Of a DNA stretch of 46,578 nucleotides, positions 7,158-46,578 are shown piece by piece. The stretch's first letter is position 1. Each line of letters starts with the position of its first letter. Below the pieces are notes generated by a model. The model saw only the letters and a list, made by a program, of their open reading frames with translations, had not been told where the DNA came from and made no database searches. The DNA lies in contig WJLX01000104.1 of the NCBI GenBank assembly GCA_014728225.1, positions 1-46,578 on the forward strand. The letters run 5' to 3'. Origin of the DNA: Candidatus Coatesbacteria bacterium (GTDB lineage Bacteria > RBG-13-66-14). Position numbers and translations under genes: made by a program.

Positions 7158-7253
7158 GCCGGCCGGAACCGGCACGGTTTTTGCATCTCGGCGCCCGTTA
7201 AGCCCGGCCGGTAACGGTCCGCCTCCGCAAAAACCGTGCCGGTTCCGGCCGGC
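7158..7253 (+). repeat. intergenic palindrome family, copy 1
   Basis: Perfect 27-bp inverted arms (7158-7184 and 7227-7253) contain the core GGCACGGTTTTTGC. Inside them is the family's internal loop (ATCTCGG on the left, GCCTCC on the right) and an inner stem CCGTTA/TAACGG. It lies between the end of murJ and the start of dxs, both on the minus strand. It is the reference orientation for the family. Confidence 0.9.
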
Positions 7254-7333
7254 CTGGGGGTGACTGAGCCGGTCGAGGTCGGCCGCCGCCTTGCCGGGGT
7301 CGCCGTCGGGGGGTTCAGCAGAGGAAACGCGGC

Positions 7334-9019
7334 TCAGCGGCGGCGGGTTCCCCGGCGGGGGATCAGGCGGGTGATCTCGCCGAGCTCGCGAACGCCGAGG
7401 AGTTTGGCCGCGCCGAAATAGATCCCGGCGCCCAGCAGGACCCCGACGGCGCCGCCGAGGAGCTTTTCGCCCAGCAGGGCCGTGGCGGGATCGAAGGCGA
7501 TCCAGCGCAGGTAGAAGAACAGTCCGGCGCCCATCGCCACGGCGGCGCCGAGGATGCGCAGGCCGCTGTTGAGGATGCTGCGCAGGCCCAGGGGTCCCAT
7601 CCGGCGGCGCAGGATCACCAGCAGGATGCCCCAGTTGACGAAGGCGGCGGCGGCGCTGGCCAGGGCCAGGCCGCCCTGCTCCATCGACCACATCAGCGCC
7701 AGGTCGCCGCCGACATTGACGACCACGGCGACGGCGGCGGCGATCACCGGCGTCTTGGTGTCCTTCTGGGCGTAGAAGACGGGCACGGTGACGTGGACGC
7801 CGATGTAGGCCGTCAGGCCCAGGGCGTAGAACAGCAGGGCCCAGGCGGCCTCAGCCGTGGCGGCGGCGGTGAAGGCCCCGCGCTGGAAGAACAGGGCGAT
7901 CAGCGGCTCGCGCAGCACCACCAGGCCGACGGTCGCCGGCACGGCGACGAACAGGGCCAGGCGGACGGCGTCGTTGAAGGTGTCACGCAGGGGTCCCCAG
8001 TCGCGCTTGGCGGCGTAGCTGGACAGCGCGGGCAGGACGGCGGTGGCCATCGCGATGCCGAAGACGCCCAGGGGAAATTGCAGCAGACGCTCGGAGTAGT
8101 TGAGGGCGCTGATGGTGCCCTCGCCGAGCAGGCTGGCCAGGGCGTTGTCGACCAGCAGGTTGATCCGGGTGACGGCCAGGCCGAACAGCGCCGGGACCAT
8201 CAGCTTCATCACCTTGCGCAGGCCGGGGTGGCGGAAGTCCAGGCGCGGTTTCCAGCGCCAGCCCAGCCCGCGCGTCCCCGCGCCGAGGACGACGACCTGC
8301 AGCACCCCGCCGACCACGACGGCCACGGCCACGCCGTGGATCATCTCCGGTTTGCTCTCGCCGAACAGGGGCACCAGGGTGTAGAGCCCGGCGATGAAGA
8401 CCAGGTTGAGGATGATCGGGCCGCTCGAGGGCAGAGCGAAACGCCGGTGGGCGTTGAGCAGGGACATCAGCACCGCCGCCAGGCTCATGGTGACCATGAA
8501 GGGCACCATCTCCCGGGTCAGGCCGATGGCCAGGCGCAGGTTGCCCGTCTCGGTGAAGCCCGGGGCGATCACCCGCAGGATCTGCGGGGCGAACAGGGCG
8601 AACAGGCCGGCCAGCACCGCCGTCACCACCAACAGGGCGTTGAAGACGTTGTCGGCCAGCCGCCAGGCCTCCCGCGGTCCCTTGTTCTCCTTGTAGTCGA
8701 TGAACAGGGGCAGGAAGTAGGAGGCCATCGCGTTCTCGCCCAGCACCCGGCGGAAAAAGTAGGGGATGGCGTAGGCGATGCGAAAGGCGTCGTTGACGGC
8801 CCCGGCGCCGAAGATCGAGGCGTAGAGCATCTCCCGGGCCAGGCCCAGCACACGGCTGACCACGGTCATCCCGCCGACGGTCCCGGCGGAGCGGATCAGC
8901 CGACCGCGCTCCCGCTCGCGCTCGACGCCGACCGCCGCCGCGGAGACGCCGCTCAGGTCCCCCGGGGGGACGGCGCCGGGTTCGGGCGCCCCGTTGACGC
9001 TGTCGTCCCGTTCGTCCAT
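7334..9019 (-). CDS. murJ: lipid II flippase MurJ
   Basis: A 561-aa polytopic protein of the MVF/MOP superfamily, which moves lipid-linked peptidoglycan precursors across the inner membrane. Recognisable features are the first transmembrane region AGTVGGMTVVSRVLGLAREM with its conserved Arg residues, NDAFRIAYAIPYFFRRVLGENAM, the repeat-like LGVFGIAMATAVLPALSSYAA, and about 14 hydrophobic segments. The N-terminus has an unusual hydrophilic extension of about 40 residues before the first helix. The ATG sits only 8 nt after a strong extended -10 element (9028-9036), with no visible Shine-Dalgarno sequence, suggesting a leaderless message. If it is leaderless, the long N-terminus is real. Confidence 0.95.
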   Translation of the reverse strand: MDERDDSVNGAPEPGAVPPGDLSGVSAAAVGVERERERGRLIRSAGTVGGMTVVSRVLGLAREMLYASIFGAGAVNDAFRIAYAIPYFFRRVLGENAMASYFLPLFIDYKENKGPREAWRLADNVFNALLVVTAVLAGLFALFAPQILRVIAPGFTETGNLRLAIGLTREMVPFMVTMSLAAVLMSLLNAHRRFALPSSGPIILNLVFIAGLYTLVPLFGESKPEMIHGVAVAVVVGGVLQVVVLGAGTRGLGWRWKPRLDFRHPGLRKVMKLMVPALFGLAVTRINLLVDNALASLLGEGTISALNYSERLLQFPLGVFGIAMATAVLPALSSYAAKRDWGPLRDTFNDAVRLALFVAVPATVGLVVLREPLIALFFQRGAFTAAATAEAAWALLFYALGLTAYIGVHVTVPVFYAQKDTKTPVIAAAVAVVVNVGGDLALMWSMEQGGLALASAAAAFVNWGILLVILRRRMGPLGLRSILNSGLRILGAAVAMGAGLFFYLRWIAFDPATALLGEKLLGGAVGVLLGAGIYFGAAKLLGVRELGEITRLIPRRGTRRR

Positions 9020-9027
9020 AGACCGGG

Positions 9028-9036
9028 ATTATAACA
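9028..9036 (-). promoter_or_regulatory. extended -10 promoter of murJ, leaderless arrangement
   Basis: On the minus strand the sequence reads TGtTATAAT, with its 3' end 8 nt before the murJ ATG. Transcription would start at or within 2 nt of the start codon. No convincing -35 box is seen, which fits an extended -10 promoter. Confidence 0.55.
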
Positions 9037-9152
9037 TTAACGAGGGGTCGGGACAGCGGGAGGGCACAGCGGGAAGGAACGCAGCGGCGGCGCGGGTTCC
9101 GTCTGCCGGGCGGTCCCGGAGATAGCCGCCGTGGCTTGAGCCGGCGGGCGGG

Positions 9153-10667
9153 CTACTCGACGTGCCAGGTCGTGCCCCGGGGGGTGTCCTCGACGACGAC
9201 ACCGGCGGCGGCCAGCTCGTCGCGGATGGCGTCGGCGGCGGCGAAGTCGCGCTCCGCGCGGGCCCGTTTCCGCGCCGCCAGCCGTTCCTCGACCCAGGCG
9301 GCGTCGATCCCTCCGCCGTCGTCGACCGCCTCCAGCCCCAGGCCGAGGACCCGGTCGAAGTCCAGAACGGCCTTCTTGGCGGCCTCGATTTCCGTCCGCT
9401 GGATGATGCCGTCATCGAGCATTCGGTTTACCTTGCCGAGCATCCCGTAAACGGCGGCCAGGGCGACGGAGATGTTGAGATTGTCGGCCACGGCGGCCCG
9501 GAAGTCGCTGTCGGCGGCCGTAAGGACGGCGGAGACCCCCGTTCCGCCAAGCCCCAGCTCCTCGGCGGGCTCTTTCGGAGCCGCGTCCCTTTCCCGATCC
9601 AGGCGGCGGACGAACTCCCGCAACCGCTTGAGGTTGGCCGCGGCGGCGTCCAGACCGGCGAAGGTGAAGTTCAGCGGTTTGCGGTAGTGCGTGCCCAAGA
9701 GCAGCAGCCGGACGGCCAGGGGCTCGTAGCCCTTTTCCTCCAGGTTCCGCAGGGTGAAGAAGTTGCCCAGGGATTTGCTCATCTTCTGGTTTTCTACCAG
9801 CAGGTAACCGCAGTGCAGCCAGTGGCGAACGAACCGGACCCCGTTGGCGGCCTCGGACTGGGCGATCTCGTTCTCGTGGTGGGGGAAGATGTTGTCGTGG
9901 CCGCCGGAGTGCAGATCGATGGTCCGGCCCAGGTGCTCGGTGGACATCGCCGAGCACTCGAGGTGCCAGCCGGGGCGGCCGACGGGCAGGGGGCTGTCGG
10001 CGACGTAGTCCCGGGGGTCCCAGGCCGGTTCACCGGGCCGGTGGGCCTTCCAGAGGGCGAAGTCCCGGGCGTCCTGCTTGTCGTACTCGTCGGAATCGAC
10101 CCGGGCGCCGACGCGGATGTCGTCCAGGTCCAGTCCGGACAGGGCGCCGTAGTTCTCGAACCGGCGGATGGGGAAATACCAGTGGCCGTCCTCGCCCTCG
10201 TAGGCGCAGCCGTTTTCTATCAAGCGCTGGACCAGTCCGACCATCGGTCCGATGGTCTCGGTGGCCCGGGGGTAGACGGCGGCGGGCTTGATGTTGAGCT
10301 TGTCGATATCGGCGAAGAAGGCGTCGCGGTAGGTCTTGGTATGGGCGTCGAGGCGTTTGCGCAGCTCGGCGGCGGGCAGGTCGGCCCTCTCGGGGTTGGC
10401 GCCCTTGATGGTCTTGTCGTCGACGTCGGTCAGGTTCATCACCTGCTTGACCCGCCAGCCCAGGTACTCCAGCGCCCGCACGACCTGATCCTCGAAGATG
10501 TAGGCGCGGAAGTTGCCGATGTGGGCGTGGTCGTAGACCGTCGGTCCGCAGGTGTAGTAGGTGATCGGTTCTTCGGGGTTGCGCCGGGCGGGGGAATCCG
10601 CCGGGGGGAACTCCCGTCGGCCCTTGGTCAAGGTGTCGAAAAGCTGGAGAGGTTTCGGCGCGGTCAT
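9153..10667 (-). CDS. cysS: cysteinyl-tRNA synthetase
   Basis: A 504-aa class I aminoacyl-tRNA synthetase. Cys40 in YTCGPTVYDHAHIGN is the first zinc ligand and HIGN is the HIGH-type ATP motif. WHLECSAM and GGHDNIFPHHENE supply the remaining zinc and cysteine-recognition residues. KMSKSLGN is the KMSKS loop, and the C-terminal DALR-like region ends with a small domain (YGMLGKVNRML onwards). The ATG follows GAGGTGAGCC. It charges tRNA-Cys. The gene is monocistronic or read through towards murJ across a 133-nt gap; a candidate promoter is at 10882-10911, implying a leader of about 200 nt. Confidence 0.97.
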   Translation of the reverse strand: MTAPKPLQLFDTLTKGRREFPPADSPARRNPEEPITYYTCGPTVYDHAHIGNFRAYIFEDQVVRALEYLGWRVKQVMNLTDVDDKTIKGANPERADLPAAELRKRLDAHTKTYRDAFFADIDKLNIKPAAVYPRATETIGPMVGLVQRLIENGCAYEGEDGHWYFPIRRFENYGALSGLDLDDIRVGARVDSDEYDKQDARDFALWKAHRPGEPAWDPRDYVADSPLPVGRPGWHLECSAMSTEHLGRTIDLHSGGHDNIFPHHENEIAQSEAANGVRFVRHWLHCGYLLVENQKMSKSLGNFFTLRNLEEKGYEPLAVRLLLLGTHYRKPLNFTFAGLDAAAANLKRLREFVRRLDRERDAAPKEPAEELGLGGTGVSAVLTAADSDFRAAVADNLNISVALAAVYGMLGKVNRMLDDGIIQRTEIEAAKKAVLDFDRVLGLGLEAVDDGGGIDAAWVEERLAARKRARAERDFAAADAIRDELAAAGVVVEDTPRGTTWHVE

Positions 10668-10881
10668 GGCTCACCTCGTCGCGGAAACGCCGCAGCGTCC
10701 TGGGGGATCGGCTGTCGCAATAGAGAAGAAAAGCGCGGGGACGGCGGGCGGCGGCGGCTTGCGGGAGGGTACCCTAGCCCCGACCCCCCGCCGGGGTACA
10801 GCAGCAGCGGCGGGCGGCCCGGTGGCGGTTGGTGGGGGCGGGATAAGGGGGCATCGCGGCAGGGGGCGGCGGTTCGAGGGG

Positions 10882-10911
10882 ATAATAGCCCAGAACGGCC
10901 CCGGTTGTCCA
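10882..10911 (-). promoter_or_regulatory. candidate promoter of cysS with a long leader
   Basis: On the minus strand, TGGACA (10911-10906), 18 nt, TATTAT (10887-10882). The rest of the gap (10668-10881) would then be a GC-rich 5' leader of about 200 nt. It contains a stem GTACCC/GGGTAC (10769-10774 with 10794-10799) enclosing G/C-rich pairing. I saw no T-box or other riboswitch consensus in it. Confidence 0.4.
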
Positions 10912-10931
10912 GAGCGGGGAGGTCCGCCGCC

Positions 10932-10960
10932 TTGAAGGACCCGCCGGACCGTGCTATACT
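10932..10960 (+). promoter_or_regulatory. sigma70 promoter of the rbfA-ribF operon
   Basis: TTGAAG (10932-10937), 17 nt, TATACT (10955-10960), with TGc immediately upstream as an extended -10. The rbfA ATG lies 39 nt downstream. Confidence 0.7.
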
Positions 10961-10999
10961 GCCTTGCCGCACCACCCGAGACCCGAACCGGAAAGAAGC

Positions 11000-11344
11000 A
11001 TGAGCAAGCGCACCATCCAGGTCGGACGACAGCTCAAGACGGCCCTGACCGAATTGATCGACGAGCTGCGCGATCCCCGCATCGGCGAGCTGGTCCTAAC
11101 CGAGGTCGAGCTGTCCGTTGATCTACTCTACGCCAAGGTCTACTACGATTCCAACGAGCCCGGGGACGAGCTGGCCCAGACCCAGGCCGGGTTGGAGCAC
11201 GCCGTCCCCCACCTGCGTCGGAGACTGGCCCGAGAGCTCAACCTGCGCAACACCCCGGAGCTGACCTTCCACTTCGACAAGGACCTGCGTCGCGGCGAGC
11301 GCGTGCGGGAGCTGCTGGACGAGATCGCCGACGACGACGACTGA
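11000..11344 (+). CDS. rbfA: ribosome-binding factor A
   Basis: A 114-aa KH-type protein that binds the 30S subunit and helps mature the 5' end of 16S rRNA. Supporting segments are RVGRQLKTALTELIDELRDPRIGELVLT-like sequence, then VDLLYAKVYYDS and LRRRLARELNLRNTPELTFHFD, the usual order and length of RbfA. The start is the ATG after GAAAGAAGC, which removes a short upstream extension of the open frame. It is first in the rbfA - nrnA-like - truB - ribF operon, a gene order common near translation genes (nusA-infB-rbfA-truB-ribF) in many bacteria; nusA and infB are not here. Confidence 0.95.
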   Translation: MSKRTIQVGRQLKTALTELIDELRDPRIGELVLTEVELSVDLLYAKVYYDSNEPGDELAQTQAGLEHAVPHLRRRLARELNLRNTPELTFHFDKDLRRGERVRELLDEIADDDD

Positions 11345-11361
11345 GCACGGACGGTTGCCCG

Positions 11362-12354: not shown

Positions 12355-12400
12355 CGGAAAAGATGCTGGACCGGGATCGACTGACGACGGGGGAGATAGT

Positions 12401-14271: not shown

Positions 14272-14300
14272 TGAGCGCCGCCGCCCGCGCCCCGGCCCGT

Positions 14301-14546: not shown

Positions 14547-15184
14547 GGGATAGCTTAACGCTCATGGGTCGTCATCTGTTGTGATTGTCTTGTCTTCACG
14601 AGAGTTGAGGGGATGCCGTCACGTCACGAGCAATGGAGGCGCTGTGGCCGCCGGCTCAAAGGGTAATCCCGACAGGCGCGTCAAGTGCGCGAAGTGTAAC
14701 TATCGCTATCACTACAGGTTAGGCGACGGGCGGCGGAAGTGCGAGCGCCTTGGAACAGCGCCGGTTGATCGCCGTGCTGCTTCGGCTTGAAGCAACCGCG
14801 GCCCGAGCGGCCAAAAAGGTCGGCGTCCATCCCAACACATTCGGCAAGTACTAGCGCATCGCCGCCGCTCGGGAGGCCGAGCTGGGCTCGAGCGTCTACT
14901 CCGACGGCTGACAGACCGATAACAAGCTGTCACTCAACGGCTTCCATCCCAGGCGCATCAATCATGACAAGACTCGGGTCAATGATAAAGTGCATAGCAA
15001 CGGCCTCGAGAGCTTCCGGGGCTATGCCAAACGCCGGCGAAAGGCCCACCACGCACGACGGTTTCAAGCGCAACGTCAGCCTCTCTATCAGGCAGATGGA
15101 GTTCAGATTCAACCAAAGAAACGATCCCGGCAGGCTAGACTACCTAAAATGCAGCCTGATTGGTCCATGATCGTGTGTGATCCC
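14547..15184 (+). mobile_element. decayed, internally deleted IS1595-type element, copy 1
   Basis: The element is bounded by imperfect inverted repeats: the left end starts GGGATAGCTTAACGCTCATGG, and the right end read inwards starts GGGATCACACACGATCATGG. It is flanked by 8-bp direct repeats TATCGTTG (14539-14546) and TATCGCTG (15185-15192) with one mismatch, the target duplication length of the IS1595 family. It encloses a broken transposase gene. The second copy at 21055 shares the ends and the same central deletion, so this is a non-autonomous derivative rather than an intact IS. Confidence 0.8.
14644..15170 (+). pseudogene. IS1595-family (ISXO2-like) transposase remnant, copy 1
   Basis: The reading begins at a GTG after GGAGGCGCT and gives a zinc-ribbon start VKCAKCNYRYHYRLGDGRRKC. 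It then loses about 50 nt compared with copy 2, shifts frame, and carries a stop within the VYSDG region. The C-terminus is still readable in pieces (FHPRRINHDKT, SNGLESFRGYAKRR, QMEFRFNQRND), which are the last blocks of ISXO2-like transposases. The central block, with the catalytic Asp of the ELDEAYFGG type, is missing. It cannot make an active enzyme. Confidence 0.8.
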
Positions 15185-18091: not shown

Positions 18092-18285
18092 CCGCGACCG
18101 TTGAAAACGATGCAGCCCGAACGGCGCCGCTCGGGACGAACCCGGCCGGAACCGGCACGGTTTTTGCGGAGGCCGACCGTTATCCTCAGTTCGTAACGGT
18201 CGCCGAGCTGCAAAAACCGTGCCGGTTCCGGCCCGCTGGGTCGTCGAGGATGCCGACGGTGCCGGAACGTTTTCAACGGTCGCGG
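18092..18285 (-). repeat. intergenic palindrome family, copy 2 (composite)
   Basis: Inner arms of 24 bp (18144-18167 and 18210-18233) are perfect and carry the GGCACGGTTTTTGC core. The inner loop is in the reverse orientation relative to copy 1 (GGAGGCC on the left, GCCGAGCT on the right), with inner stem GACCGTTA/TAACGGTC. An additional outer inverted repeat of 18 bp, also perfect (18092-18109, CCGCGACCGTTGAAAACG, with 18268-18285), encloses the whole. It lies between the divergent dnaX and bcp promoters. Confidence 0.9.
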
Positions 18286-21054: not shown

Positions 21055-21741
21055 GGGATACCTTAACGCTTATGGATCATCATATATTGTGATTGTCTTG
21101 TAGTCACGAGAGTTACCAGGATGCTTTCAAGCCACAAGTAAAGGAGGCGCTGTGGCCGCCGGATCAAAGAGTAATCCTGACAGGCACGTCAAGTGTGCGA
21201 AGTGTAACTTTCGCTATCAGTAGAGGTTTGGCGACGGGCGGCGGATGTGTAAGCGCTGTCGCAAGCGCTTCACCTATAAACGGGCTCGCCGTGGGCTTTC
21301 AGAAAAAGAGCGTGAATTGATTGCCGCGCTGTTGTGGCTTGAAGCAACCGCGGCCCGAGCGGCCAAGAGGGTCGGCGTCCATCCCAATACGGTCGCCAAG
21401 AATTATCGTATCATTGGCGAGCGTATCGCCGCGGATCGAGAGGCCGAGCTGGACTCGAGCGTCTACTCCGACGGCTGGAAGGCCTATTACAAGCTGTCTC
21501 ATTCAACAGCTTCCATCACAGGCGCATCAACCACGATAAGACCCTGGTTGGCGGCAAGCAACGGCCTCGAGCACTTCCGGGGCTACGCCAAACGCCGGCT
21601 AATATCCGACCATGGCTGCTTCAAGCACAAGTTCAGGCTCTTCATCAGGGAGATGGAGTTCCGATTCAACCAACGAAACGATCCCGGCAGGCTAGACTAC
21701 CCCAACAGCAGCCTGATTGGTCCATGATCGTGTGTGATCCT
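21055..21741 (+). mobile_element. decayed, internally deleted IS1595-type element, copy 2
   Basis: The left end GGGATACCTTAACGCTTATGG (21055 on) and the right end (TCCATGATCGTGTGTGATCC, to about 21741) match copy 1. At about 687 bp it is slightly longer than copy 1, because copy 1 lost a further 50 nt near the zinc ribbon. The flanks TTAAGCAA and GCGGTTTT do not match, so no target duplication remains and the surroundings were probably rearranged after insertion. It encloses a transposase pseudogene. Confidence 0.8.
21152..21727 (+). pseudogene. IS1595-family (ISXO2-like) transposase remnant, copy 2
   Basis: It starts at a GTG after AAAGGAGGCGCT. The zinc ribbon VKCAKCNFRYQ is followed by an in-frame TAG (a Tyr codon in copy 1), then MCKRCRKRFTYK. 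Next come KERELIAALLWLEATAARAAKRVGVHPNTV and a jump from AELDSS straight to VYSDGWKAYYKL, so the catalytic core of about 100 residues is missing. The C-terminal blocks NGLEHFRGYAKRRL, GCFKHKFRLFIREMEFRFNQRND and LIGP are clear. The same internal deletion is present in copy 1. Confidence 0.85.
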
Positions 21742-22246: not shown

Positions 22247-22579
22247 TCAATGCAACCGGCCCTGCCAGGCGTGACCGCCCTCCCAGCCGGCGTTGTACTT
22301 CGAATCGACGAAGTAGATCAGCAGCTCGGCGTTGTACTTCGAATCGACGTAGTAAACCTGGACGTCGGCGTCGTACTTCGACTCGACGAAGTACCACAAG
22401 CCGTCGTCGTCATCGGCGTCGTACTTGGAGTCGACGACGTAGACCAGCAGGTCGGCGTTGTACTTCGAATCGACGACGTAGACCAACACGTCGGCGTCGT
22501 ACTTGGAATCGCAAACGTGGATGCTGCCGGCTGGCACGGGTGGCACGACCAGTAAGAGGATCAGCGGCACCAGTTTCAT
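22247..22579 (-). CDS. secreted six-repeat SKYDAD protein, DUF6150/Septknot-like
   Basis: A 110-aa protein with a signal peptide (MKLVPLILLLVVPPVPAG) and six copies of a 13-residue motif of the form VDSKY(D/N)ADxxVYV. The third and fourth copies are separated by a DDDDGLW insert. The motif and the GLW-type insert match what I know of DUF6150 (named Septknot in Pfam), in which a small member from Ureaplasma folds into a seven-crossing (7_1) knot. I infer the same fold here but cannot model it. The ATG follows GGGAGAG and a TGcTATTCT promoter at 22609-22617. Biochemical function is unknown. It is divergent from butyrate kinase. Confidence 0.8.
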   Translation of the reverse strand: MKLVPLILLLVVPPVPAGSIHVCDSKYDADVLVYVVDSKYNADLLVYVVDSKYDADDDDGLWYFVESKYDADVQVYYVDSKYNAELLIYFVDSKYNAGWEGGHAWQGRLH

Positions 22580-24027: not shown

Positions 24028-24107
24028 AACCCCGGGCCGGCGCATTTCTTGCATTCCCGAGGTCGTCGGTCGACGACCTCGGGCAAGAAATGCGCCGGCC
24101 CGGGGTT
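24028..24107. repeat. 80-nt two-tier perfect palindrome
   Basis: Outer arms of 25 bp (24028-24052 and 24083-24107) pair perfectly and include GGCGCATTTCTTGC. They are followed on the left only by an ATT bulge, and then an inner 13-bp perfect stem CCCGAGGTCGTCG/CGACGACCTCGGG (24056-24068 with 24071-24083) with a 2-nt loop. It has the same plan as the six-copy family but an unrelated sequence. It lies between buk and the convergent secreted-repeat gene. Confidence 0.8.
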
Positions 24108-24459: not shown

Positions 24460-26622
24460 TTAGCGACCGACGACCACCCGGCGGCTGAGGGCGCGGTTTT
24501 CGCTCTCCAGGCGCAGCAGATAGAGCCCGGCGGACTCGCCGGAGCAATCCCAGGTCAACTGGTGGCGTCCGGGGCCGAGTTCGCCCCGGGTCAGCTGGGC
24601 CACCCGGCGGCCGGACAGGTCGTAAACGGCCAGGCTGACGTGACGGGCCTCGGGCAGGGTGAAGGCCAGGCTGACGCTCTCGACGGCGGGGCAGGGCCAG
24701 GGCTCTTCGAGGCTGAAGATCAGCTCCGGTTCGGGAACGAGAAGCTCTTCGGTGGGGCCGAAGCGCCGGGTGTTGCCGTTGGGCATGGTCAGCTCGAGCC
24801 AGTAGCTGTAGCTGTGTCCGGCGTCGGCGCGGCGGTCGAGGTAGCGGGTGACGCGGCCGTCGAAGGACGGACCGACGTAGGCGGGTTCTCCGGAGCCATC
24901 GTTGCGCAGCAGGCGCACGGCGGCGGGACTGCCGCCCTCGACGGTCCAGCTCAACAGGACGCCGTCGTCGGCAAGAGTGGAGGTCAGTTCGGCCTCGAGG
25001 GTGCTCAGATCGGGCGGCACGGTGAAGCTCCAGGTCTCGGCGGACCAGAAGCTGCTGCTGCTTTGCCAGGCCTGGACCTTCCAGTAGTAGGTCAGCCCGC
25101 GCCGCAGTTCGAGGGGCCCGAACTGGTATTCGGAGTTGATCAGGCCGGTGATGGTCTGGTGGGGGGCGAAGTCGGGCTCGGTCGAGAACCACAGATCGTA
25201 GGTCGGACTAACGGCCAGCGGCAGGTCCTCCCAGTCGACCCGGGGCCAGTCGGGGACCTGTTGGCCGTCGGGTGGGGAGAGGAGGTGGAAGGTCGGCGAG
25301 ACCTGGAAGCTCCAGGTTTCGTTGGAGATGGTCTCGGCGAAGCCGTCGGTGGCCCGGACCTTCCAGTAGTAGAGGGGGCCGATGACCAGTTCGTCGCCGG
25401 AGAAGGTGTAGTTGGTCGTGTCGAGGTCGGTGATCTCGTTGTAAGTGCTGAAGTCGGGGTCCGTCGAGTAGAGCAGGGCGTAGCCGACCGCGGGGAAGTC
25501 GACGACCTCCTCCCAGCTGACCTCGGGCCAGGTTTCGAAGATCGAGCCGTCCTCGGGGCCGAGGAGGCTGAAGGGCGGCGGCGGGTTGTTGGTCCAGAGG
25601 AAGTTGAGGTCCAGTCCGCCGGCGTCGAAGTAGCTGACGACGGGGTTGTCGTTCTCGTCGAGAGCCAGGGATGTGTGTTTACCGACGACGTCCTCCTCGT
25701 CGAGGATCTCGCTGGTCCAGGCGGCGCCGTCCCACCAGGTGTAGACCAGATCGTCGTTCTCGTTGTCGTAATGGGCGACGTGGGGGTAATCGTTCTCGTC
25801 GAGGACCAGGGAGCTGTAGAGGCCCATCTGCAGCTCCGTGGTGACCTGTTCGGTCTGCCAGGCGGCGCCGTCGTAATAGGCGTAGCAGAGCGCGTTTTCA
25901 TCGCCGTCGTTGTAGACGAAGTGAGGGTTGTCGTTGAAGTCGACGGCGATGTCGTAGTTGGTCAGCATCGTTCCGTAGGCCGGGGTGGCGGTTTGCCAGG
26001 CGGCGCCGTCCCAGTGATAGTAGTCGGCGCCCATGCCGTAGCTCTGGAAGACGAGGTGGGGCAGGTCGTTGGAGTCGAGGGCGATGTGGCCGTCGAGGCC
26101 GATGTAGCCGCCGTCGACGACGGTTTCGATCGTCCAGTCGACGCCGTCCCAGTGGGCGTACTTGACCGCTCCCAGACCGATGTCGTAGTAGATGAGGTGG
26201 GGGTAGTCGTTGGAGTCCAGGGCCAGGTCGGAGTGGCTGCCGGCGGAGTTGTCGGCCTCGAGGGTCTCGATGACCCACTCGGCGCCGTTCCAATGGGCGT
26301 AGCGCATATCCACCGGGTCCTCGGCGAAGTAGGAGATGTGCGGGCGACCCTGGGAGTCGAGGGCCAGCGAGGTGTACTTGCCGGGAAAGCCCTCGTCGTC
26401 GACGATCTCGATGACCCACTGGGCGCCGTCCCAGTACGCATAGCGCAATTCGCAATCCGGGTTGGTCTTCTGATAGGCGATGTGTGGATATCCCAGGTCG
26501 TCGAGGGTCAGGGAGGTCCACAAGCCGACGACATCCTCGGTGTCGACGGCGATGATCTGTCTCTCCTGGGCGCCGGCCGTCGCCAGGCAGACAAGAAGGA
26601 TGAGAATGGACAGTTTCTTCAT
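24460..26622 (-). CDS. secreted repeat protein with FlgD-Ig / type-IX-like C-terminus
   Basis: A 720-aa exported protein with a signal peptide (MKKLSILILLVCLATAGA). Residues about 25-370 hold seven repeats of roughly 45 residues of the form TSLALDSNGYPHISYYD-LRYAHWDG-AAWVIETVD, suggesting a beta-propeller or related repeat fold. Two fibronectin/Ig-like domains follow, each ending in YYWKVRA or YYWKVQA. Next is a domain of about 110 residues with a SYWLELTMPNG segment. The C-terminus (VSLAVYDLSGRRVAQL, GRHQLTWDCSGESAGLYLLRLES, RRVVVGR) is of the FlgD-Ig/type IX sorting kind, used for surface export in FCB-group bacteria. The ATG follows GGAGG; an 18-codon upstream extension of the frame is ignored. 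A terminator follows. Confidence 0.88.
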   Translation of the reverse strand: MKKLSILILLVCLATAGAQERQIIAVDTEDVVGLWTSLTLDDLGYPHIAYQKTNPDCELRYAYWDGAQWVIEIVDDEGFPGKYTSLALDSQGRPHISYFAEDPVDMRYAHWNGAEWVIETLEADNSAGSHSDLALDSNDYPHLIYYDIGLGAVKYAHWDGVDWTIETVVDGGYIGLDGHIALDSNDLPHLVFQSYGMGADYYHWDGAAWQTATPAYGTMLTNYDIAVDFNDNPHFVYNDGDENALCYAYYDGAAWQTEQVTTELQMGLYSSLVLDENDYPHVAHYDNENDDLVYTWWDGAAWTSEILDEEDVVGKHTSLALDENDNPVVSYFDAGGLDLNFLWTNNPPPPFSLLGPEDGSIFETWPEVSWEEVVDFPAVGYALLYSTDPDFSTYNEITDLDTTNYTFSGDELVIGPLYYWKVRATDGFAETISNETWSFQVSPTFHLLSPPDGQQVPDWPRVDWEDLPLAVSPTYDLWFSTEPDFAPHQTITGLINSEYQFGPLELRRGLTYYWKVQAWQSSSSFWSAETWSFTVPPDLSTLEAELTSTLADDGVLLSWTVEGGSPAAVRLLRNDGSGEPAYVGPSFDGRVTRYLDRRADAGHSYSYWLELTMPNGNTRRFGPTEELLVPEPELIFSLEEPWPCPAVESVSLAFTLPEARHVSLAVYDLSGRRVAQLTRGELGPGRHQLTWDCSGESAGLYLLRLESENRALSRRVVVGR

Positions 26623-26668
26623 TTTGACCTCCAGGAAAAGCGCGAAAACTGTAAAATTCGAAAGAGGC

Positions 26669-26677
26669 TTATCCACA
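26669..26677 (+). promoter_or_regulatory. perfect DnaA-box match
   Basis: TTATCCACA is the consensus DnaA box. It lies in the AT-rich upstream region of the secreted-repeat gene and close to its likely promoter (TATACT on the minus strand about 20 nt further upstream). It is isolated, so it is more likely chance or local regulation than an origin. The rest of the gap, 26678-26940, shows nothing I can name. Confidence 0.35.
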
Positions 26678-28452: not shown

Positions 28453-28638
28453 CCGTTGAAAAACGACGCCTCCGGCACCGCCGCAACCCGCCGGCCCCCG
28501 AGCCGGAACTGGCACGGTTTTTTCGGAGGCGGACCGTTACCCTCCGCCGTAACGGTCGCCGAGATGCAAAAACCGTGCCAGTTCCGGCGGCGCAGCCGCG
28601 TGAGTGTGCGGTACGGCTGGAACGTCGTTTTTCAACGG
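28453..28638 (-). repeat. intergenic palindrome family, copy 3 (composite)
   Basis: Inner arms (28502-28524 and 28566-28588) carry GGCACGG on one side and CCGTGCC on the other, with the variant GAACTGG paired to CCAGTTC, a two-sided change from copy 1. One base (TTTTTTC instead of TTTTTGC) is unpaired. The internal loop is in the reverse orientation and the inner stem is GACCGTTA/TAACGGTC. A 16-bp outer inverted repeat CCGTTGAAAAACGACG (28453-28468 with 28623-28638) encloses it. It lies between rlpA and the permease gene. Confidence 0.9.
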
Positions 28639-38248: not shown

Positions 38249-38324
38249 AGCGACTGCTCCTCGCGTTATACAACTGTTCCAAACCGGCGGCGCCCGTCGC
38301 CCCGGAGACCGACACACCCGCCGG

Positions 38325-38419
38325 CACGCCCCGGAGTTGGCACGGTTTTTGCAACCCCTGCGATCGCCGTCGTCCGGGCCGGGTCGGTTTCGCAAAAACC
38401 GTGCCAACTCCGGGGCGTG
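38325..38419 (+). repeat. intergenic palindrome family, copy 4
   Basis: Perfect 28-bp arms (38325-38352 and 38392-38419). The variable part reads GGAGTTGGCACGG on the left and CCGTGCCAACTCC on the right, so three arm positions differ from copy 1 on both sides. The internal loop is the most diverged of the family, keeping only TTTCGC near the right arm. It lies between the response-regulator gene and the MMPL gene. Confidence 0.9.
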
Positions 38420-38469
38420 TTAGTTGTAGCCGTCGAGGTTGGTGTTTTGGGGGGCGCCGGGCGCCGCGG

Positions 38470-38886
<417 letters not shown>

Positions 38887-38897
38887 GGATTGCTGCT

Positions 38898-40202: not shown

Positions 40203-40301
40203 CGCTTGTTTATTTGCGGACGACGCCGCGAATCAGCGGCACACGGCTCCAGCCTGGATCGGTCTACGAGGGAATGGTGAATTATCCACCAAACTACTAC
40301 A

Positions 40302-40330
40302 AGTATGCTTGATAAATCAAGCGCTGGCAA
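40302..40330 (-). promoter_or_regulatory. promoter of the EAL operon with an embedded operator-like dyad
   Basis: On the minus strand, TTGCCA (40330-40325), 17 nt, CATACT (40307-40302). The spacer contains a perfect 16-nt inverted repeat GCTTGAT-TT-ATCAAGC (40307-40322) that reaches the -10 box. A protein bound here would block RNA polymerase, so this is a good repressor site. The predicted leader is about 95 nt. A TTATCCACC near-match to a DnaA box lies downstream. Confidence 0.6.
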
Positions 40331-40371
40331 GGGTAAAGGGAAGTCGTTCCAGCGTCCTTCGCCGTGGAGGC

Positions 40372-41478: not shown

Positions 41479-41616
41479 GGCCTTACCCCCTCTAGCCTGT
41501 GGCTTGCTTGTCAGTGGTAGATATTCTCAACTAATGATCGCAATCGCCGTCGCTCGCTCCGAGCGCCGAGACCCGCCCGGCCCCGGAGACGGCGCTCAGC
41601 CGACGCGGGCTTTCCC

Positions 41617-41707
41617 GCCCCGGAACCGGCACGGTTTTTGCATCTCGGCGACCCTCGAGGCGGCCGTCGGCGGTGCGCCTCCGCAAAAACCGTGCCGGTT
41701 CCGGGGC
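41617..41707 (+). repeat. intergenic palindrome family, copy 5
   Basis: Perfect 25-bp arms (41617-41641 and 41683-41707) carry the same CCGGAACCGG core as copy 1 but a GCCC/GGGC end in place of GGCC. The conserved left loop CATCTCGGCGACC and right GCGCCTCCGC are present. The inner stem is replaced by a different pairing. It lies between the end of yggS and the start of mscS. Confidence 0.9.
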
Positions 41708-41769
41708 TGACGGCGGCGGTGTTCCGGCGCTGTTGCGGAGTGTTCCCGCCGTCTACGGGGCCGGGAGTT

Positions 41770-42471
41770 CTAGAGCAGTCCCTCGTAGAGGGCCGAGCCG
41801 ACGCGGACCAGGGTGGCGCCCTCTTCGACGGCGATTTCGTAGTCGTTGGTCATGCCCATCGACAGCTCGGTGAAGTCGTCGAGGGCGTGCTCGACGGCCA
41901 GCTCGTCGCGCAGCTCGCGCAGGGCGGCGAAGACGGGCCGGGTCAGCTCGACGTCCTCGAGGAGGGGGGCCATGGTCATCAGGCCCCGGGGTCTGAGTTG
42001 TTCCAGGCGCAGCAGGGCGGGAAAGTCGTTCTTGAGCTGCTGCGGCGTGAAGCCGTGTTTGGAAGCCTCGCCGGCGACGTTGACCTCGAACATCACGGGA
42101 ACCCGTCGCTGCCCGGCGACGCGCTTGTCGACGTCGCGGGCGTGCTTGAGCGAATCGATGGAGTGGATGGTGGAGAAGATCGCCAGGATGTCGTTGACCT
42201 TGTTGGACTGGATGGTGCCGATGAAGTGCCAGTCGAGCCCGGCGGGGCCGTCGAGGGCGGCGTGTTTCTCGGCGGCGGGCTGCAGGCGGTTCTCGCCGAT
42301 GGTCTCGACGCCGGCGGCGGCCAGTTGGGGCAGCACCTCGGGGCCGACGTACTTGGTGACGGCGACGAGGCGGACGTGGTCGGCGGCGTTGGCGGAGCGT
42401 CCGCGGGCGGCCTCGATGTGGGCGAGGACGCGGCGGACGTTGCTTTCCAGCAGGGTCTGATCGAGGCTCAT
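41770..42471 (-). CDS. yggS: pyridoxal-phosphate homeostasis protein YggS/PROSC
   Basis: A 233-aa TIM-barrel protein that binds PLP and keeps vitamin B6 and amino acid pools balanced; no enzymatic activity is known for the family. Lys40 in RLVAVTKYVG is the PLP-linked residue. GENRLQPAAEKH, DWHFIGTIQSNKV and ELSMGMTNDYEIAVEEGATLVRVGSALYEG are the other family blocks. Its ATG overlaps the stop of the upstream namZ-like gene by 4 nt. The long open frame continuing upstream in the same phase is a shadow over the DUF1343 gene. Confidence 0.95.
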   Translation of the reverse strand: MSLDQTLLESNVRRVLAHIEAARGRSANAADHVRLVAVTKYVGPEVLPQLAAAGVETIGENRLQPAAEKHAALDGPAGLDWHFIGTIQSNKVNDILAIFSTIHSIDSLKHARDVDKRVAGQRRVPVMFEVNVAGEASKHGFTPQQLKNDFPALLRLEQLRPRGLMTMAPLLEDVELTRPVFAALRELRDELAVEHALDDFTELSMGMTNDYEIAVEEGATLVRVGSALYEGLL

Positions 42472-43703
42472 GGCGTCTCGGTGTAGAGCAGGTAGGGTCG
42501 GCGCTGCTCGGCGAAGGCGGCGGCGTCGGCGGCCCAGGTGTCCAGCAGGACTGCCGGCTCGAGCTCGCCGGCGAAGACACGCCCCAAGGCGTCGTCGCCC
42601 AGCATGGCCCGCAGGAAGGTGGTTTGCGGGCGGGTCCGGTCGGGGTGGCGGCGGCCGAGGTAGGCGTAGCCGTAGGCGGCCAGCCGCAGAGGATCGAAGG
42701 CGTCCCGATCGTTGAGGCTGATCTCGACGCCGCGACAGGTCGCCGCGGTGTGCTTGCCGTCGCTGGGGGCCCGCGGGGTGAATGCGACGACGCGGTAGTC
42801 GGCGCCGGGGCAGTTCTCCGTCCAGACGTCGCGCAGGCCGACGGCGTCGAGCCAGGGGGCGCCGAGGACTTCGAAGGGCCGCTCCGTCCCCCGACCGACG
42901 CTGAGATTGGTCGGCTCGAACAGGCCCGTTCCCGGGTAGCAGACGACGCCCGCGAGGCGGGGCAGGTTGGGTGAGGTCGGGCGCCAGGGCGGGGCGGGGG
43001 TTTGTGCGTCGAGATAGGTCGCGGGATCGTAGCCGGTCAGGGGTGCGACTTCGACCTCGGCCCCGGGCAGCAGCTCGCCGGCGATCCAGCGCGCCGTCTC
43101 TCCGGGCGTCAGCCCGTAGCGCACCGGCAGCGGCAGCTTGCCGACGAAGCTGTCGGCGACGCCGGGGGGCAGGGGACCGCTGACGGTGTTGCCCAGGGGA
43201 TTGGGTCGGTCGAGGACCACCAGGGGGATACCGGCCTCCCGGCAGGCCTCCAGGCAGAGGTAGAGCGTACTGGTGTAGGTGTAGAAGCGGACGCCGACGT
43301 CGGGCAGGTCGTAAACCAGGGCGTCGAGATCGGCCAGTCCGGCGGGGTCCGGTGCGCGGCGCTCGCCGTAGAGGCTGACGATCTCGAGGCCGGTGGCGGG
43401 CTCGACGGTGTCGCCGACAGCGCCGGAGCGGTCGGCGCCCAGGCCGTGTTCCGGTGAATACAGGCGCACCAGCTCGACGTTCTCCGCGGCGGCCAGCAAC
43501 CCCCAGGCCGGTTCGCCGGCGGCGTTGCGGGCGGCGTTGTTGACGACCAGGCCGATCCGTCGACCGGCCAGCGTGGCGCAATCGGCGGCGAGGAGGGCGT
43601 CCAGCCCCGTGGTGAAGAGCGCGGCTTCGGTGTCCGGTTCCGGGACGACGGCCTCCTCGTCCGCCCCGCAGGAACCGGCGAGGAGGGCGCAGGTCAACGC
43701 CAC
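42468..43703 (-). CDS. NamZ-type exo-N-acetylmuramidase (DUF1343), lipoprotein
   Basis: A 411-aa protein of DUF1343, known from Bacillus NamZ to release N-acetylmuramic acid from peptidoglycan (glycoside hydrolase family 171). Motifs: IGLVVNNAARN, LYSPEHGLGADRSGAV, ALVYDLPDVGVRFYTYTSTL, VVLDRPNPLGN, PLPVRYGLTPGETA, TSPNLPRLAGVVCYPGTGLFEPTNLSVGRGTERPFEVLGAPWLD. The N-terminus VALTCALLAGSC looks like a lipobox, so it is probably anchored to the outer or inner membrane and acts in the periplasm. The start is GTG at 43703, since no ATG lies in frame; a TTG at 43697 is an alternative. It is coupled to yggS by a 4-nt overlap. Confidence 0.88.
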   Translation of the reverse strand: MALTCALLAGSCGADEEAVVPEPDTEAALFTTGLDALLAADCATLAGRRIGLVVNNAARNAAGEPAWGLLAAAENVELVRLYSPEHGLGADRSGAVGDTVEPATGLEIVSLYGERRAPDPAGLADLDALVYDLPDVGVRFYTYTSTLYLCLEACREAGIPLVVLDRPNPLGNTVSGPLPPGVADSFVGKLPLPVRYGLTPGETARWIAGELLPGAEVEVAPLTGYDPATYLDAQTPAPPWRPTSPNLPRLAGVVCYPGTGLFEPTNLSVGRGTERPFEVLGAPWLDAVGLRDVWTENCPGADYRVVAFTPRAPSDGKHTAATCRGVEISLNDRDAFDPLRLAAYGYAYLGRRHPDRTRPQTTFLRAMLGDDALGRVFAGELEPAVLLDTWAADAAAFAEQRRPYLLYTETP

Positions 43704-43764
43704 GGCGGCCTGGCTGCATCGCTGCCTGATGGGTTGCTCCCGGTAAGGTCTCGACGCGCCGATT

Positions 43765-44547
43765 CTACGTCAACGGTCCGGGCTGCGCAAGCGGGCCGGG
43801 GTCGGGTCGGTAGGCGAACTCCGGGTAGGAGACGCGGTAGAGGTAGAGGCCGTGGGCCGGGGCGGCGGGGGCGCGGTCGGGGTCTTCTCCGGCCAGCAGG
43901 CGCGCCAGCAGCTCGCCGTCCCAGCGGCGCCGCCCGAGGCGCAGCAGGGTGCCGACGATCCGGCGGACCATGCGGTAGAGGAAGGCTTCGGCGCCGATGC
44001 GCAGCCAGTGCAGCGGCGGACGATGGACGAGGCCGCACTCGTCGACGGTGCGAACCGTGCCGCCGCGACCGCCGACGGGGCCGCCGAAGGAGCCGAAGTC
44101 CCGGGTGCCGACGAAGCGGGTGGCCGCCCGCTCCATCAACTCCCAGTCCGGGGTCTCGTCGAGGATCAGAGCCCGGTCGCGCCACAGCAGGGCGTCGCCC
44201 TCGCGCAGCAGGTAGCGGTACTCGCGCCGCAGGGCGTCGTAGCGGGGATGGAAGCCGGCGGGAACGACGCGGCAGCTCACCAGGCGCAGGTCGTCGGGCA
44301 GCAGGGTCGCCAAGGCGCGCTCCAGCACCTCGTCGGGGTACTCGCGCGGCGGATCCCAAGCCGCGACCTGACCCAGGGCGTGGACGCCGGCGTCGGTACG
44401 TCCGGCGGCGACGAGGTCGACCGGCTCGGCGTAGAAGCGTCCCAGGGCTTCCTCGAAGACTCCCTGTACCGTACGTCCGGCGGGTTGGCGCTGGAAACCG
44501 GCGAAGCCCGCGCCGTGGTAGGCCAGAACGGCGACGCGACGGCTCAT
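43765..44547 (-). CDS. truA: tRNA pseudouridine(38-40) synthase
   Basis: A 260-aa pseudouridine synthase acting at positions 38-40 of tRNA anticodon arms. Evidence: AYHGAGFAGFQRQPAGRTVQG, the catalytic Asp52 in AAGRTDAGVHALGQVA, FHPRYDALRREYRY, FLYRMVRRIVGTLLRLGRRR and the C-terminal GLYLYRVSYPEF. Its ATG overlaps the stop of the EcfT-like gene by 4 nt (ATGA), a pairing seen in many bacteria where ecfT precedes truA. It is followed 61 nt later by the namZ-like gene. Confidence 0.95.
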   Translation of the reverse strand: MSRRVAVLAYHGAGFAGFQRQPAGRTVQGVFEEALGRFYAEPVDLVAAGRTDAGVHALGQVAAWDPPREYPDEVLERALATLLPDDLRLVSCRVVPAGFHPRYDALRREYRYLLREGDALLWRDRALILDETPDWELMERAATRFVGTRDFGSFGGPVGGRGGTVRTVDECGLVHRPPLHWLRIGAEAFLYRMVRRIVGTLLRLGRRRWDGELLARLLAGEDPDRAPAAPAHGLYLYRVSYPEFAYRPDPGPLAQPGPLT

Positions 44548-45098
44548 CGCCCCGGCTCCCCGGCGGCGGCTCGCAGCTCGGCCCGGCGGCGGGCCGCTTC
44601 GTCACCGGCGGCCAGCAGGCGGCGGGCGAAGGCCGTCAGTCGACCCCGGCGGGCGTGGACCCGCCAGCCGTCGTGCAGCAGTGCGCGGCCGCGCTCCAGC
44701 GTCGCCTGGTAACCGGCGAAAGTCTCGGCCAGTCGACGCCGCAGGAGCCGTCCCGGACGTCCGGGCACCAGGCCGGCGATCCCGTCCGGGCCGGCCGCGG
44801 CCAGCACCCCGGCGCAGAGGAAGACGGCCAGCAGACGAGCCGCCGACAATCCCGCCTCCAGGTAGTCCGTCGCCGTCAAGGGGCCGGCCAGGGCCGCCGC
44901 GACCAGGCGCAGCCCGCCGGTCAGCAGCACCAGCCACAGCCCGAGTCCCAGCGCCCGGGGCACGGCGCGCCAGCCGGAGCTTCCGACGAGCAGAACCAGG
45001 GCGGCCAGGGTCAACCCGCCCACGGGCCAGGGTCCGGAAACCAGGGCCGCCGCGGCGATCCCCGCGCAGGCGAGCAGGGCCCGCAGCCGGGGGCTCAC
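44544..45098 (-). CDS. small membrane protein, possibly EcfT/CbiQ-like
   Basis: A 184-aa protein with four or five hydrophobic segments (LLACAGIAAAALVSG, LTLAALVLLV, ALGLGLWLVLLTGGL, LLAVFLCAGVLAAAG) and a basic C-terminal half with LLRRRLAETFAGYQATLERGR. Only weak similarity to the EcfT transmembrane subunit of energy-coupling-factor transporters is visible. The position next to truA supports that call, since ecfT-truA is a common pair, but the ATPase genes are absent. The GTG start overlaps the upstream transglutaminase stop (GTGA) and its own stop overlaps the truA ATG, so it is translated as a coupled unit. A longer frame upstream is rejected. Confidence 0.6.
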   Translation of the reverse strand: MSPRLRALLACAGIAAAALVSGPWPVGGLTLAALVLLVGSSGWRAVPRALGLGLWLVLLTGGLRLVAAALAGPLTATDYLEAGLSAARLLAVFLCAGVLAAAGPDGIAGLVPGRPGRLLRRRLAETFAGYQATLERGRALLHDGWRVHARRGRLTAFARRLLAAGDEAARRRAELRAAAGEPGR

Positions 45099-46429
45099 TC
45101 CGCCTCCCGTACGACCAGGCCGTCGACGGCGGCGAAGAAGGACCGGCGCTCGTCGGCTCGGGGATCGTAGGCCAGACCGAGCCGGGCGGCGTCGGCGGGC
45201 AGTTGGTTCAGATAGGCGTCCAGGCTGCGCCATTGACCGTCGGCCCAGGCCTCGTTCCAGGCGTGGTAGTAGAAGGCGCCCTCCAGGTACAGCAGGCCGA
45301 CGACGGTGCGGCAGTGCAAACCGGCGCGCCGGGCCAGGTCCGTCACCAGGGCGGCGTGCTCCGAGCAGTCGCCCCGGCGGCGGGCGTAGATCTCCGGCGC
45401 CGTCAGCTCGACACCGACGGGCAGCTCGGCCAGGTTGTCGCCGACCCAGTCGGCGATATCGGCCAGGGTGTCGTAGGGATCGTCCGAGGTCAGCGAGGCG
45501 GCCAGGTTGTCCAGGGCGCGGTCGAACTCCGGCCGCTCGGGTTCGATCGCCGGCGGCGGCGCCTCGAGGGCGTAGTTGGTCACCGTCACCCGCCAGCGGC
45601 CGTCATCGAGATCCGCCACGACCTGGAAAGGCCCCTCAGGCGGGCGCCGACCGCCCTCGACCTCGAGCACCAGCCGCCGGGTTCGGCGGGGATCCTCGAT
45701 GACGCCCGTCGGGAAGATCGCTGCGCTGGCCGTCGGGTCGACCCAACCGACGTCGGCCTTCGCCGCGGTCTCGTCGGCCGCCGGGCGGATGCGCATCCCG
45801 CCGGGCAGCTCGATCAGCACCAGCTCCCCCGCCGCCGTCAGATAGATGTCCCGGGGTACGCCGTCGAGGAGGTTGATGTTGTGGTAGCCTGTAAAGCTGT
45901 CCCCGTCGATCTCGAGGATCTCCAACACGCCCCGACTCAGAGTGCCCTCGATGATCCGTGAGTAGTCGCTGGCGTAACAGCGATAGTCGACGCTCTCGCC
46001 GGGGCCCGCACCGCCGGTGACGAAGTGGGTCCCCAGGGAGCCGGGCAGACCGCCCTCGAGGTAGTCCTTGCCCTGGATGACCCCCCGGGTGCTGCTCACC
46101 GCCAGCACACCGCCCTCCAGCGCGGCGGTGATGATCGTGGTCTCCGTACCCGACAGCTGGTGGTCCGAAGCCTTCAACAACTCGCCCGCTGCATTGTAGA
46201 GCTCGCGGCGGCGGGAACTGGTCAGCATCGAGCGCCCGTCGCGCATCAACTGCATCGTCGAGTAACTCTCGATCCATACTCCGCCGGCGTTCTCCCCCGT
46301 GGTGATCGGCACGCTGTTGGAGTAGGAGTAGCCGATCTTCTCACCGTTCAGGTAGAGGGAGTACCAGTTGACGGCCGTCGCCACGGCGACGGTCAGCAGC
46401 AGAAAGAGGATTGTCAGGCTTCGACGCAT
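45095..46429 (-). CDS. transglutaminase-like exported protein
   Basis: A 444-aa protein with a signal peptide (MRRSLTILFLLLTVAVATAV) and a long N-terminal domain of about 290 residues made of beta-strands (NWYSLYLNGEKIGYSYS onwards) found in similar exported transglutaminase-like proteins. The C-terminal transglutaminase/protease-like fold has Cys355 (RRGDCSEHAALV), His389 (YYHAWNEAW) and Asp404 (WRSLDAYLNQ), the full triad. Substrate unknown. It heads a run of coupled genes (transglutaminase, EcfT-like, truA). GAGGTGA lies 9 nt before the ATG. Confidence 0.9.
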   Translation of the reverse strand: MRRSLTILFLLLTVAVATAVNWYSLYLNGEKIGYSYSNSVPITTGENAGGVWIESYSTMQLMRDGRSMLTSSRRRELYNAAGELLKASDHQLSGTETTIITAALEGGVLAVSSTRGVIQGKDYLEGGLPGSLGTHFVTGGAGPGESVDYRCYASDYSRIIEGTLSRGVLEILEIDGDSFTGYHNINLLDGVPRDIYLTAAGELVLIELPGGMRIRPAADETAAKADVGWVDPTASAAIFPTGVIEDPRRTRRLVLEVEGGRRPPEGPFQVVADLDDGRWRVTVTNYALEAPPPAIEPERPEFDRALDNLAASLTSDDPYDTLADIADWVGDNLAELPVGVELTAPEIYARRRGDCSEHAALVTDLARRAGLHCRTVVGLLYLEGAFYYHAWNEAWADGQWRSLDAYLNQLPADAARLGLAYDPRADERRSFFAAVDGLVVREAE

Positions 46430-46460
46430 GGACGATCACCTCGGCGGCTGCGGTGCGCGA

Positions 46461-46578
46461 GACCTTTGAAAAACCCCGCCAAAACCCGGCGCACGGTACT
46501 CACAGGCCCCGGAACTGGCACGGTTTTTGCATCTCAGCGACCGTTGGAGCGGCGGCAACGCTGCGCTTCCGCAAAAAC
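46461..46578 (+). repeat. intergenic palindrome family, copy 6 (cut by the window end)
   Basis: The left arm (46505-46530) ends GGCACGGTTTTTGC and has the GAACTGG variant of copy 3. The inner part CATCTCAGCGACCGTT follows, and the right arm starts GCAAAAAC at 46571 before the window ends. Upstream, GACCTTTGAAAAACCCCG (46461 on) matches the outer inverted repeat of copies 2 and 3. The copy lies upstream of the transglutaminase gene. Confidence 0.85.

Follow-up and report, generated by a model that had tools for sequence, protein, structure and literature searches.

What are the long palindromes that recur between the genes of Candidatus Coatesbacteria contig WJLX01000104.1? A preliminary description of this 46,578-nt stretch (hereafter the window; it is contig C104 of a 2.96-Mb, 181-contig, 96.8% complete genome) listed six of them, all of which are present, and considered a structured RNA, a protein-bound DNA hairpin and a mobile element as explanations. 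It missed that the shared core of the palindromes reads as a sigma-54 (RpoN) promoter, that an outer palindrome layer surrounds it, and that further subfamilies exist. We tentatively propose that the palindromes form one lineage-restricted, non-autonomous intergenic repeat family, whose functional core would be a pair of facing sigma-54 promoters.

The sequence read for this analysis comprised 1.16 Mb (39%) of the window's genome and 0.29 Mb of the genome of a sister genus (G001), and whole-genome counts come from pattern searches. Genes were called with a simple purpose-made codon-usage caller, and gene contexts are approximate. We refer to the main form in the window as type A, to the main form in G001 as type B, and to an asymmetric short form as class II.

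The core as a probable sigma-54 promoter

The positions of the core that are kept between the two genera read TGGCAC-N5-TTGC, i.e., the −24/−12 promoter of sigma-54, with a spacing of 10 bases from GG to GC as in the sigma-54 promoters of Salmonella (PMC3844500). The sigma-54 site of Salmonella rpoH, TGGCACGGTTGTTGC, is nearly identical to the element core (PMC3844500). Each element carries two such matches, which face inward within a hairpin. Unlike ordinary sigma-54 promoters, they come as facing pairs in palindromes, at about 500 sites, and lie after gene ends and not upstream of genes.

Outside recognised elements, TGGCAC-N5-TTGCW was found at 12 sites in the 1.16 Mb, all of them intergenic, and other spacings occurred 0-2 times each. 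Four of these sites are element halves that the finder missed, and the other eight all lie 28-84 nt upstream of a gene. The genes behind them encode a sigma-70-type factor, a FecR-domain protein, an Hsp20, an NtrC-type activator, a response regulator, an Lcl_C protein, a zinc-ribbon protein and one unknown protein. For the zinc-ribbon protein gene (83-84 aa), the promoter match stands at the same 28 nt in both genera (L072:11960 and L181:2879), and a variant site with TGGCAT precedes a gene for a ClpC-type ATPase. The genome contains rpoN, with the RpoN box ARRTVAKYRK, and about eight full-length sigma-54 activators.

Judged from these matches, the arms are very probably sigma-54 promoter sequences; that RpoN binding is also the reason why the core is conserved seems somewhat favoured. 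Every subfamily combines an arm that reads TTGCA, as in gene promoters, with one that reads TTGCG or TTGCC, so that an element may hold a stronger and a weaker promoter. A single-stranded promoter like Frpo of the F plasmid was considered and rejected, as the promoters point to the hairpin tip and would not prime outward.

The palindromes of the window

A scan of the window gave 11 cores that are exact or have one mismatch, plus one unrelated two-mismatch match; shuffled sequences are expected to give 0.28. The arms are as follows.

7114..7132, unstranded: copy 1, left outer arm, imperfect (score 14.0 vs. a control maximum of 11)
7158..7184, plus strand: copy 1, left inner arm; sigma-54 promoter match GGCACGGTTTTTGC, pointing right into the centre
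7227..7253, minus strand: copy 1, right inner arm; facing promoter match on the opposite strand, 27/27 paired
7290..7308, unstranded: copy 1, right outer arm, from the outer-arm scan
18092..18109, unstranded: copy 2, left outer arm, CCGCGACCGTTGAAAACG
18144..18167, plus strand: copy 2, left inner arm; sigma-54 promoter match
18210..18233, minus strand: copy 2, right inner arm; sigma-54 promoter match
18268..18285, unstranded: copy 2, right outer arm; 18/18 paired with 18092-18109
24028..24052, plus strand: seventh palindrome (short related form), left arm; carries GGCGCATTTCTTGC
24083..24107, minus strand: seventh palindrome, right arm; 25/25 paired
28453..28468, unstranded: copy 3, left outer arm, from the outer-arm scan
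28502..28524, plus strand: copy 3, left inner arm; −12 GC lost (TTTTTTC), core GGCACGGTTTTTTC
28566..28588, minus strand: copy 3, right inner arm; intact sigma-54 promoter match
28623..28638, unstranded: copy 3, right outer arm, from the outer-arm scan
38287..38303, unstranded: copy 4, left outer arm, imperfect, from the outer-arm scan
38325..38352, plus strand: copy 4, left inner arm, GGAGTTGGCACGGTTTTTGC
38392..38419, minus strand: copy 4, right inner arm; 28/28 paired
38451..38467, unstranded: copy 4, right outer arm, from the outer-arm scan
41576..41594, unstranded: copy 5, left outer arm, from the outer-arm scan
41617..41641, plus strand: copy 5, left inner arm; sigma-54 promoter match
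41683..41707, minus strand: copy 5, right inner arm; sigma-54 promoter match
41747..41765, unstranded: copy 5, right outer arm, from the outer-arm scan
46506..46530, plus strand: copy 6, left inner arm; sigma-54 promoter match
46531..46578, unstranded: copy 6, centre and start of the right arm, GCAAAAAC; the contig end cuts the right arm

The inner arms are perfect over 27 bp in copy 1 (7158/7227), 28 bp in copy 4 (38325/38392) and 25 bp in copy 5 (41617/41683). Two features of the preliminary description needed amendment here. The core, said to be common to all copies, is not identical in all of them, as the left core of copy 3 differs; and copies 2 and 3, reported as long forms, merely have their outer arms included, since outer arms are also found at copies 1, 4 and 5. 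The count of six leaves out the related palindrome at 24028-24107, which is a symmetric relative of the class II short form.

Anatomy of type A

From the outside inward, a type A element begins with an outer arm (about 16-29 bp), followed on each side by a spacer of 32±6 nt and an inner arm of 22-30 bp with the core. An unpaired patch inside the inner arms reads GGA on one side and GAGAT on the other, and the central segment has the consensus GACCGTTA...TAACGGTC. Measured over both cores, the span is 67-70 bp, and the whole amounts to an inner hairpin of about 91-97 bp within a double-layer palindrome of about 200 bp.

The outer arms score at least 13 in 93 of 104 type A elements (random places in the genome reach 11 at most), and the 93 left outer arms all differ from each other. 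Many of them share GACCKTTGAAAAAC, which is absent from many others, and they often bear an A-run or T-run. Each pairs with its own partner: the median score is 19, compared with 7.5 against the flank of another copy. As unoccupied outer hairpins are almost absent, with a single case at L079:16898, the outer arms are apparently part of the element and free to evolve in sequence. In this one case (L079:16898-16984), the outer arms AGCGTTGAAAAACAGCC pair across a 52-nt loop and the inner hairpin is missing, which makes it a possible empty or precursor site. Separately, at L066:13956-14093 the centre of an element has been deleted; the outer arms are intact and the inner arms are fused to a 19-bp stem with a 3-nt loop.

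Similarity between type A copies stops at the inner arms, and the spacers are at the background of shuffled sequence. They have no complementarity across the element and no structure beyond that of their composition. Neither of two origins considered for them holds: decayed palindrome arms would leave residual complementarity, of which none was seen, and local terminator hairpins would have excess stability, found to a small extent beside T-runs only.

Type B and class II

In type B elements of G001, the cores are TGGCACGTTTCTTGC and the variants TGGCACATTTCTTGC, TGGCACACTTTTTGC and TGGCACGCTTTTTGC, in which the RpoN positions are kept and others are changed on both arms. The arms are 20 bp long, the centre reads GGAG...CCCGCCCTGCT, and outer arms were found in 24 of 28 elements. 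The two types are not strictly confined to their genera: at least one type B copy is present in the window's genome (L062:1899), and conversely a single exact type A copy stands in G001, at a gene junction shared with a type A copy of the window's genome.

Class II elements (37 in the 1.16 Mb) have one arm reading GGCGCGNTTNTTGC and the other, on its own strand, GTCACGNTTNTTGC, usually with a 3-nt bulge beside the −12 GC, and lack clear outer arms. Their apical stem is locus-specific, pairing on average at 9.76 of 10 positions vs. 4.29 with the half of another copy. Two class II palindromes stand about 145 bp apart at L082:3949 and 4094.

The internal loop had been described as conserved, which holds within a subfamily; between subfamilies its sequence changes, from GGAGGC/GCCGAGAT in type A to GGAG/CCTGCT in G001 and the 3-nt bulge in class II. 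What stays constant is an unpaired patch adjoining the −12 GC.

Pairing and compensatory variation

Arm bases that differ between copies were reported to differ on both sides. This pattern recurs across 103 type A copies of the genome, in which the base before the core (position −1) is C-G in 56 and T-A in 47, with no mismatch or intermediate; in copy 6 of the window the pairing is not visible, as its right arm is cut. Positions −9 to 13 are paired in at least 98% of the 103 copies at each position, and the inner extension from −8 to −12 pairs at 0.83, compared with 0.56 when arms are permuted between copies. Of 2663 pairs in the inner arms, a single one is mismatched, and none is G-T. Among mismatches of the outer arms, G-T (10) and A-C (13) are about equally common, so that wobble is not tolerated as it would be in an RNA. 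Given the locus-specific arm pairing and the lack of wobble, what maintains pairing works at the DNA level or is selection on the two strands alike. The spacers, which lack complementarity, make it unlikely that one processive copying event runs through the entire element.

Near-perfect Watson-Crick pairing without wobble also speaks for an element of DNA structure, in which an architectural protein would bind a cruciform or hairpin that serves as an insulator or supercoil sink at transcription-unit ends; the RpoN match would then be secondary. The locus-specific outer and apical stems agree with this, as do the position of the elements at gene ends or between genes that converge, and the lack of orientation bias relative to the gene (see below). 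Yet such an element does not predict that the exact TGGCAC-N5-TTGC is shared with gene promoters, and it comes without a candidate protein; we consider it improbable.

Genomic placement

The elements lie between genes, as first described: none of 92 in a first set and one of 149 in a larger set is inside a gene. They are dispersed in both orientations genome-wide, again in agreement with the window, and show no orientation bias relative to the neighbouring gene. Occupied junctions comprise 36 of 111 convergent (32%), 90 of 693 tandem (13%) and 11 of 115 divergent ones (10%). Per kb of free intergenic DNA, there are 0.81 type A elements at tandem, 0.74 at convergent and 0.28 at divergent junctions, and 0.19, 0.47 and 0 class II elements, respectively. 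The outer arm starts at a median of 24-27 nt past the stop codon. One element lies directly 3' of rpoN itself.

This position just past stop codons, the A-run or T-run in many outer arms, and hairpins that end no more than 2 nt from a T-run in 69% of halves (54% in shuffles) could indicate bidirectional transcription terminators, or a structured RNA in the 3' untranslated region that protects transcripts. Among 48 gene ends with an element at least 40 nt away, however, 31 already have an ordinary hairpin-plus-T terminator before the element. The T-tract is absent after the inner hairpin, the spacers are unstructured beyond composition, G-U pairs are not tolerated, and 11 copies lie between divergent genes. 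We therefore find this explanation quite improbable, and the earlier judgement that the palindromes are not ordinary terminators is upheld. The suggestion of a structured RNA found no support among known families, with 0 Rfam matches above the gathering score in the whole window.

At conserved-neighbour gene ends compared between the window's genome and G001, an element is present in both at two, only here at two, only in G001 at three, and in neither at about 46. One of the two junctions occupied in both genera has type A in each; the other is that of window copy 3, with type A here and type B in G001. Orthologous junctions are thus mostly not shared, which means that elements turned over between the genera.

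Copy number and spread

Exact cores number 265 forward and 260 reverse in the window's genome, nearly all of them paired, compared with 0 when the core is read backwards as a control. The density is about one palindrome per 11 kb, and the first 812 kb contain 150 long inverted repeats, of which 139 are these elements. A strict paired pattern gives 249 elements here and 155 in G001. Two other members of the same taxonomic family have one (G002) and two (G006), and about 380 further genomes gave two isolated matches. Further copies in the genome and in relatives, which the preliminary description had called for, are therefore present in a narrow lineage. We regard it as highly likely that the family proliferated as a repeat.

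The elements break the assembly: the window ends inside copy 6, and 10 further lone arms in the 1.16 Mb all lie at contig ends. An assembly artefact is ruled out by the asymmetry of the centre and of the spacers on either side, and by the presence of the family in a second, independent genome. The sole GTDB contig with the core and GGAGG is a chance match within an alphaproteobacterial gene. Along the chromosome, the regularity of spacing is not distinguishable from random intergenic placement.

Mobility and comparison with known repeats

Different subfamilies have been amplified in the two genera, each type having a few copies in the other genus as well. Together with the turnover at orthologous junctions, the avoidance of genes and divergent promoter regions, and a homology that ends abruptly at the inner arms, this would fit a purely selfish palindrome, similar to miniature inverted-repeat transposable elements (MITEs) or repetitive extragenic palindromic (REP) sequences. 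It would be moved by a hairpin-recognising enzyme, and the RpoN promoter would be captured or serve the element without a host role. The conserved mismatches and bulge of class II point the same way, as hairpin targets of HUH enzymes have conserved mismatches or bulges too. Against this, the genome has no match to a Y1 or IS110 transposase, and no copies were found in the phage, plasmid and viral collections searched. No longer relative or full-length insertion sequence (IS) sharing the arms occurs in the 1.16 of 2.96 Mb read; an autonomous element using the arms as its ends likewise found no support there, as lone arms stand at contig ends only. Decayed copies are few although the spacers are fully randomised. 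A purely selfish origin is possible, but in our view doubtful.

For the Y1 transposases, the profile PF01797 (TnpA(REP)) was not matched in the 96.8% complete genome, whereas the control search matched in five known genomes; the proposal of a TnpA(REP)-like mover thus failed. The IS110 search found none. A search for Y2 (IS91-type) enzymes gave no match, but its control search likewise matched nowhere.

MITEs, ERIC and Correia-type repeats are short, non-autonomous, inverted-repeat elements that spread in lineage-specific bursts, which the present family resembles. It differs from them in having no related full-length IS in the DNA read and in its locus-specific outer arms. Inverted DNA uptake sequences of Neisseria, which act as terminators, similarly place a conserved word in inverted pairs after stop codons; unlike these, the element does not occur in single copies, and its inner hairpin has no T-tract after it. 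Integron attC sites resemble class II in that an imperfect, conserved stem is topped by a terminal stem that is locus-specific, whereas the elements described here are dispersed in both orientations and do not form a one-orientation cassette array.

A general likeness exists to REP, BIME and REPIN sequences, which are high-copy, palindromic, extragenic, often located just after stop codons and non-coding (PMC2817692). With their high copy number, extragenic location and presence in both orientations, the palindromes might be REP elements moved by a TnpA(REP) (RAYT) Y1 transposase. The lack of a PF01797 match, the size (a hairpin of about 91 bp within a 200-bp double-layer palindrome) and arms made of a sigma-54 promoter all set them apart, and we think this very improbable; it would take a strongly diverged Y1 enzyme encoded in the 3% that the assembly lacks. 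Literature searches that paired sigma-54 with interspersed or palindromic repeats returned no relevant work, in line with the initial statement that no named family has this core. No described repeat family of such design was found in the literature searched.

Other repeats in the window

Three further repeats were noted in the window. Regions 14547-15183 and 21055-21740, 6.5 kb apart, share several blocks of 81-87% identity and represent a local duplication surrounding short genes with poor scores. A 738-aa open reading frame (ORF; 24460-26676) contains repeat units of about 141 bp at 25624-26447, which suggest a repeat protein. At 22247-22579, 39-nt repeats (GTCGGCGTTGTACTTCGAATCGACG...) lie within a 110-aa minus-strand ORF.

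A proposed facing pair of sigma-54 promoters spread as a repeat

Under the proposed repeat family with facing sigma-54 promoters, RNA polymerase with sigma-54 would dock on the arms as a closed complex. When an activator fires, short convergent transcripts would start in the centre and run over both flanks, often antisense to a gene end. The family would have spread by copying an inner module of about 91-97 bp, which looks like the spreading unit because conservation ends at its arms, and the perfection of the arms would follow from the element acting, or being copied, as a DNA hairpin. The proposal accounts neither for the pairing of the outer arms next to unpaired 32-nt spacers nor for the mover of the element.

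Several points weigh against it. Bases beyond those that RpoN demands (CCGGAAC, GGTTT) are also nearly invariant in type A. The −24 boxes of class II are degenerate (GGCGC, GTCAC) and poor for RpoN, and class II agrees with the spacing and context of sigma-54 sites only partly, compared with type A and type B copies, which do so on both arms. RpoN and its activators also occur in relatives without the repeat. The type A centre is not a locus-specific stem (4.75 for the own half vs. 5.05 when permuted) and is simply conserved. The empty searches for a Y1 or IS110 mover count here as well. Further, sigma-54 bound within genes gave no roadblock in E. coli (PMC4591121), which lowers the version in which parked polymerase acts as one. 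Roles in antisense control, polymerase parking or insulation are, each taken singly, unlikely. It is similarly a speculative suggestion that the approximately 250 inward-facing RpoN promoter pairs at gene 3' ends may constitute a genome-wide, activator-triggered antisense or polymerase-parking layer, which a hairpin-forming repeat would have spread and would maintain.

Transposases or terminators account for the interspersed palindromes known so far, and we found none among them with a sigma-factor promoter as its conserved core. The wobble-free paired variation makes the family a natural case in which to ask whether long palindromes are kept perfect by selection or by template-directed copying. 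If RpoN binds the elements, most RpoN sites of the cell are not gene promoters. If this is true, the prediction of sigma-54 regulons would change, and RpoN titration, antisense control and polymerase parking at gene ends would become testable.

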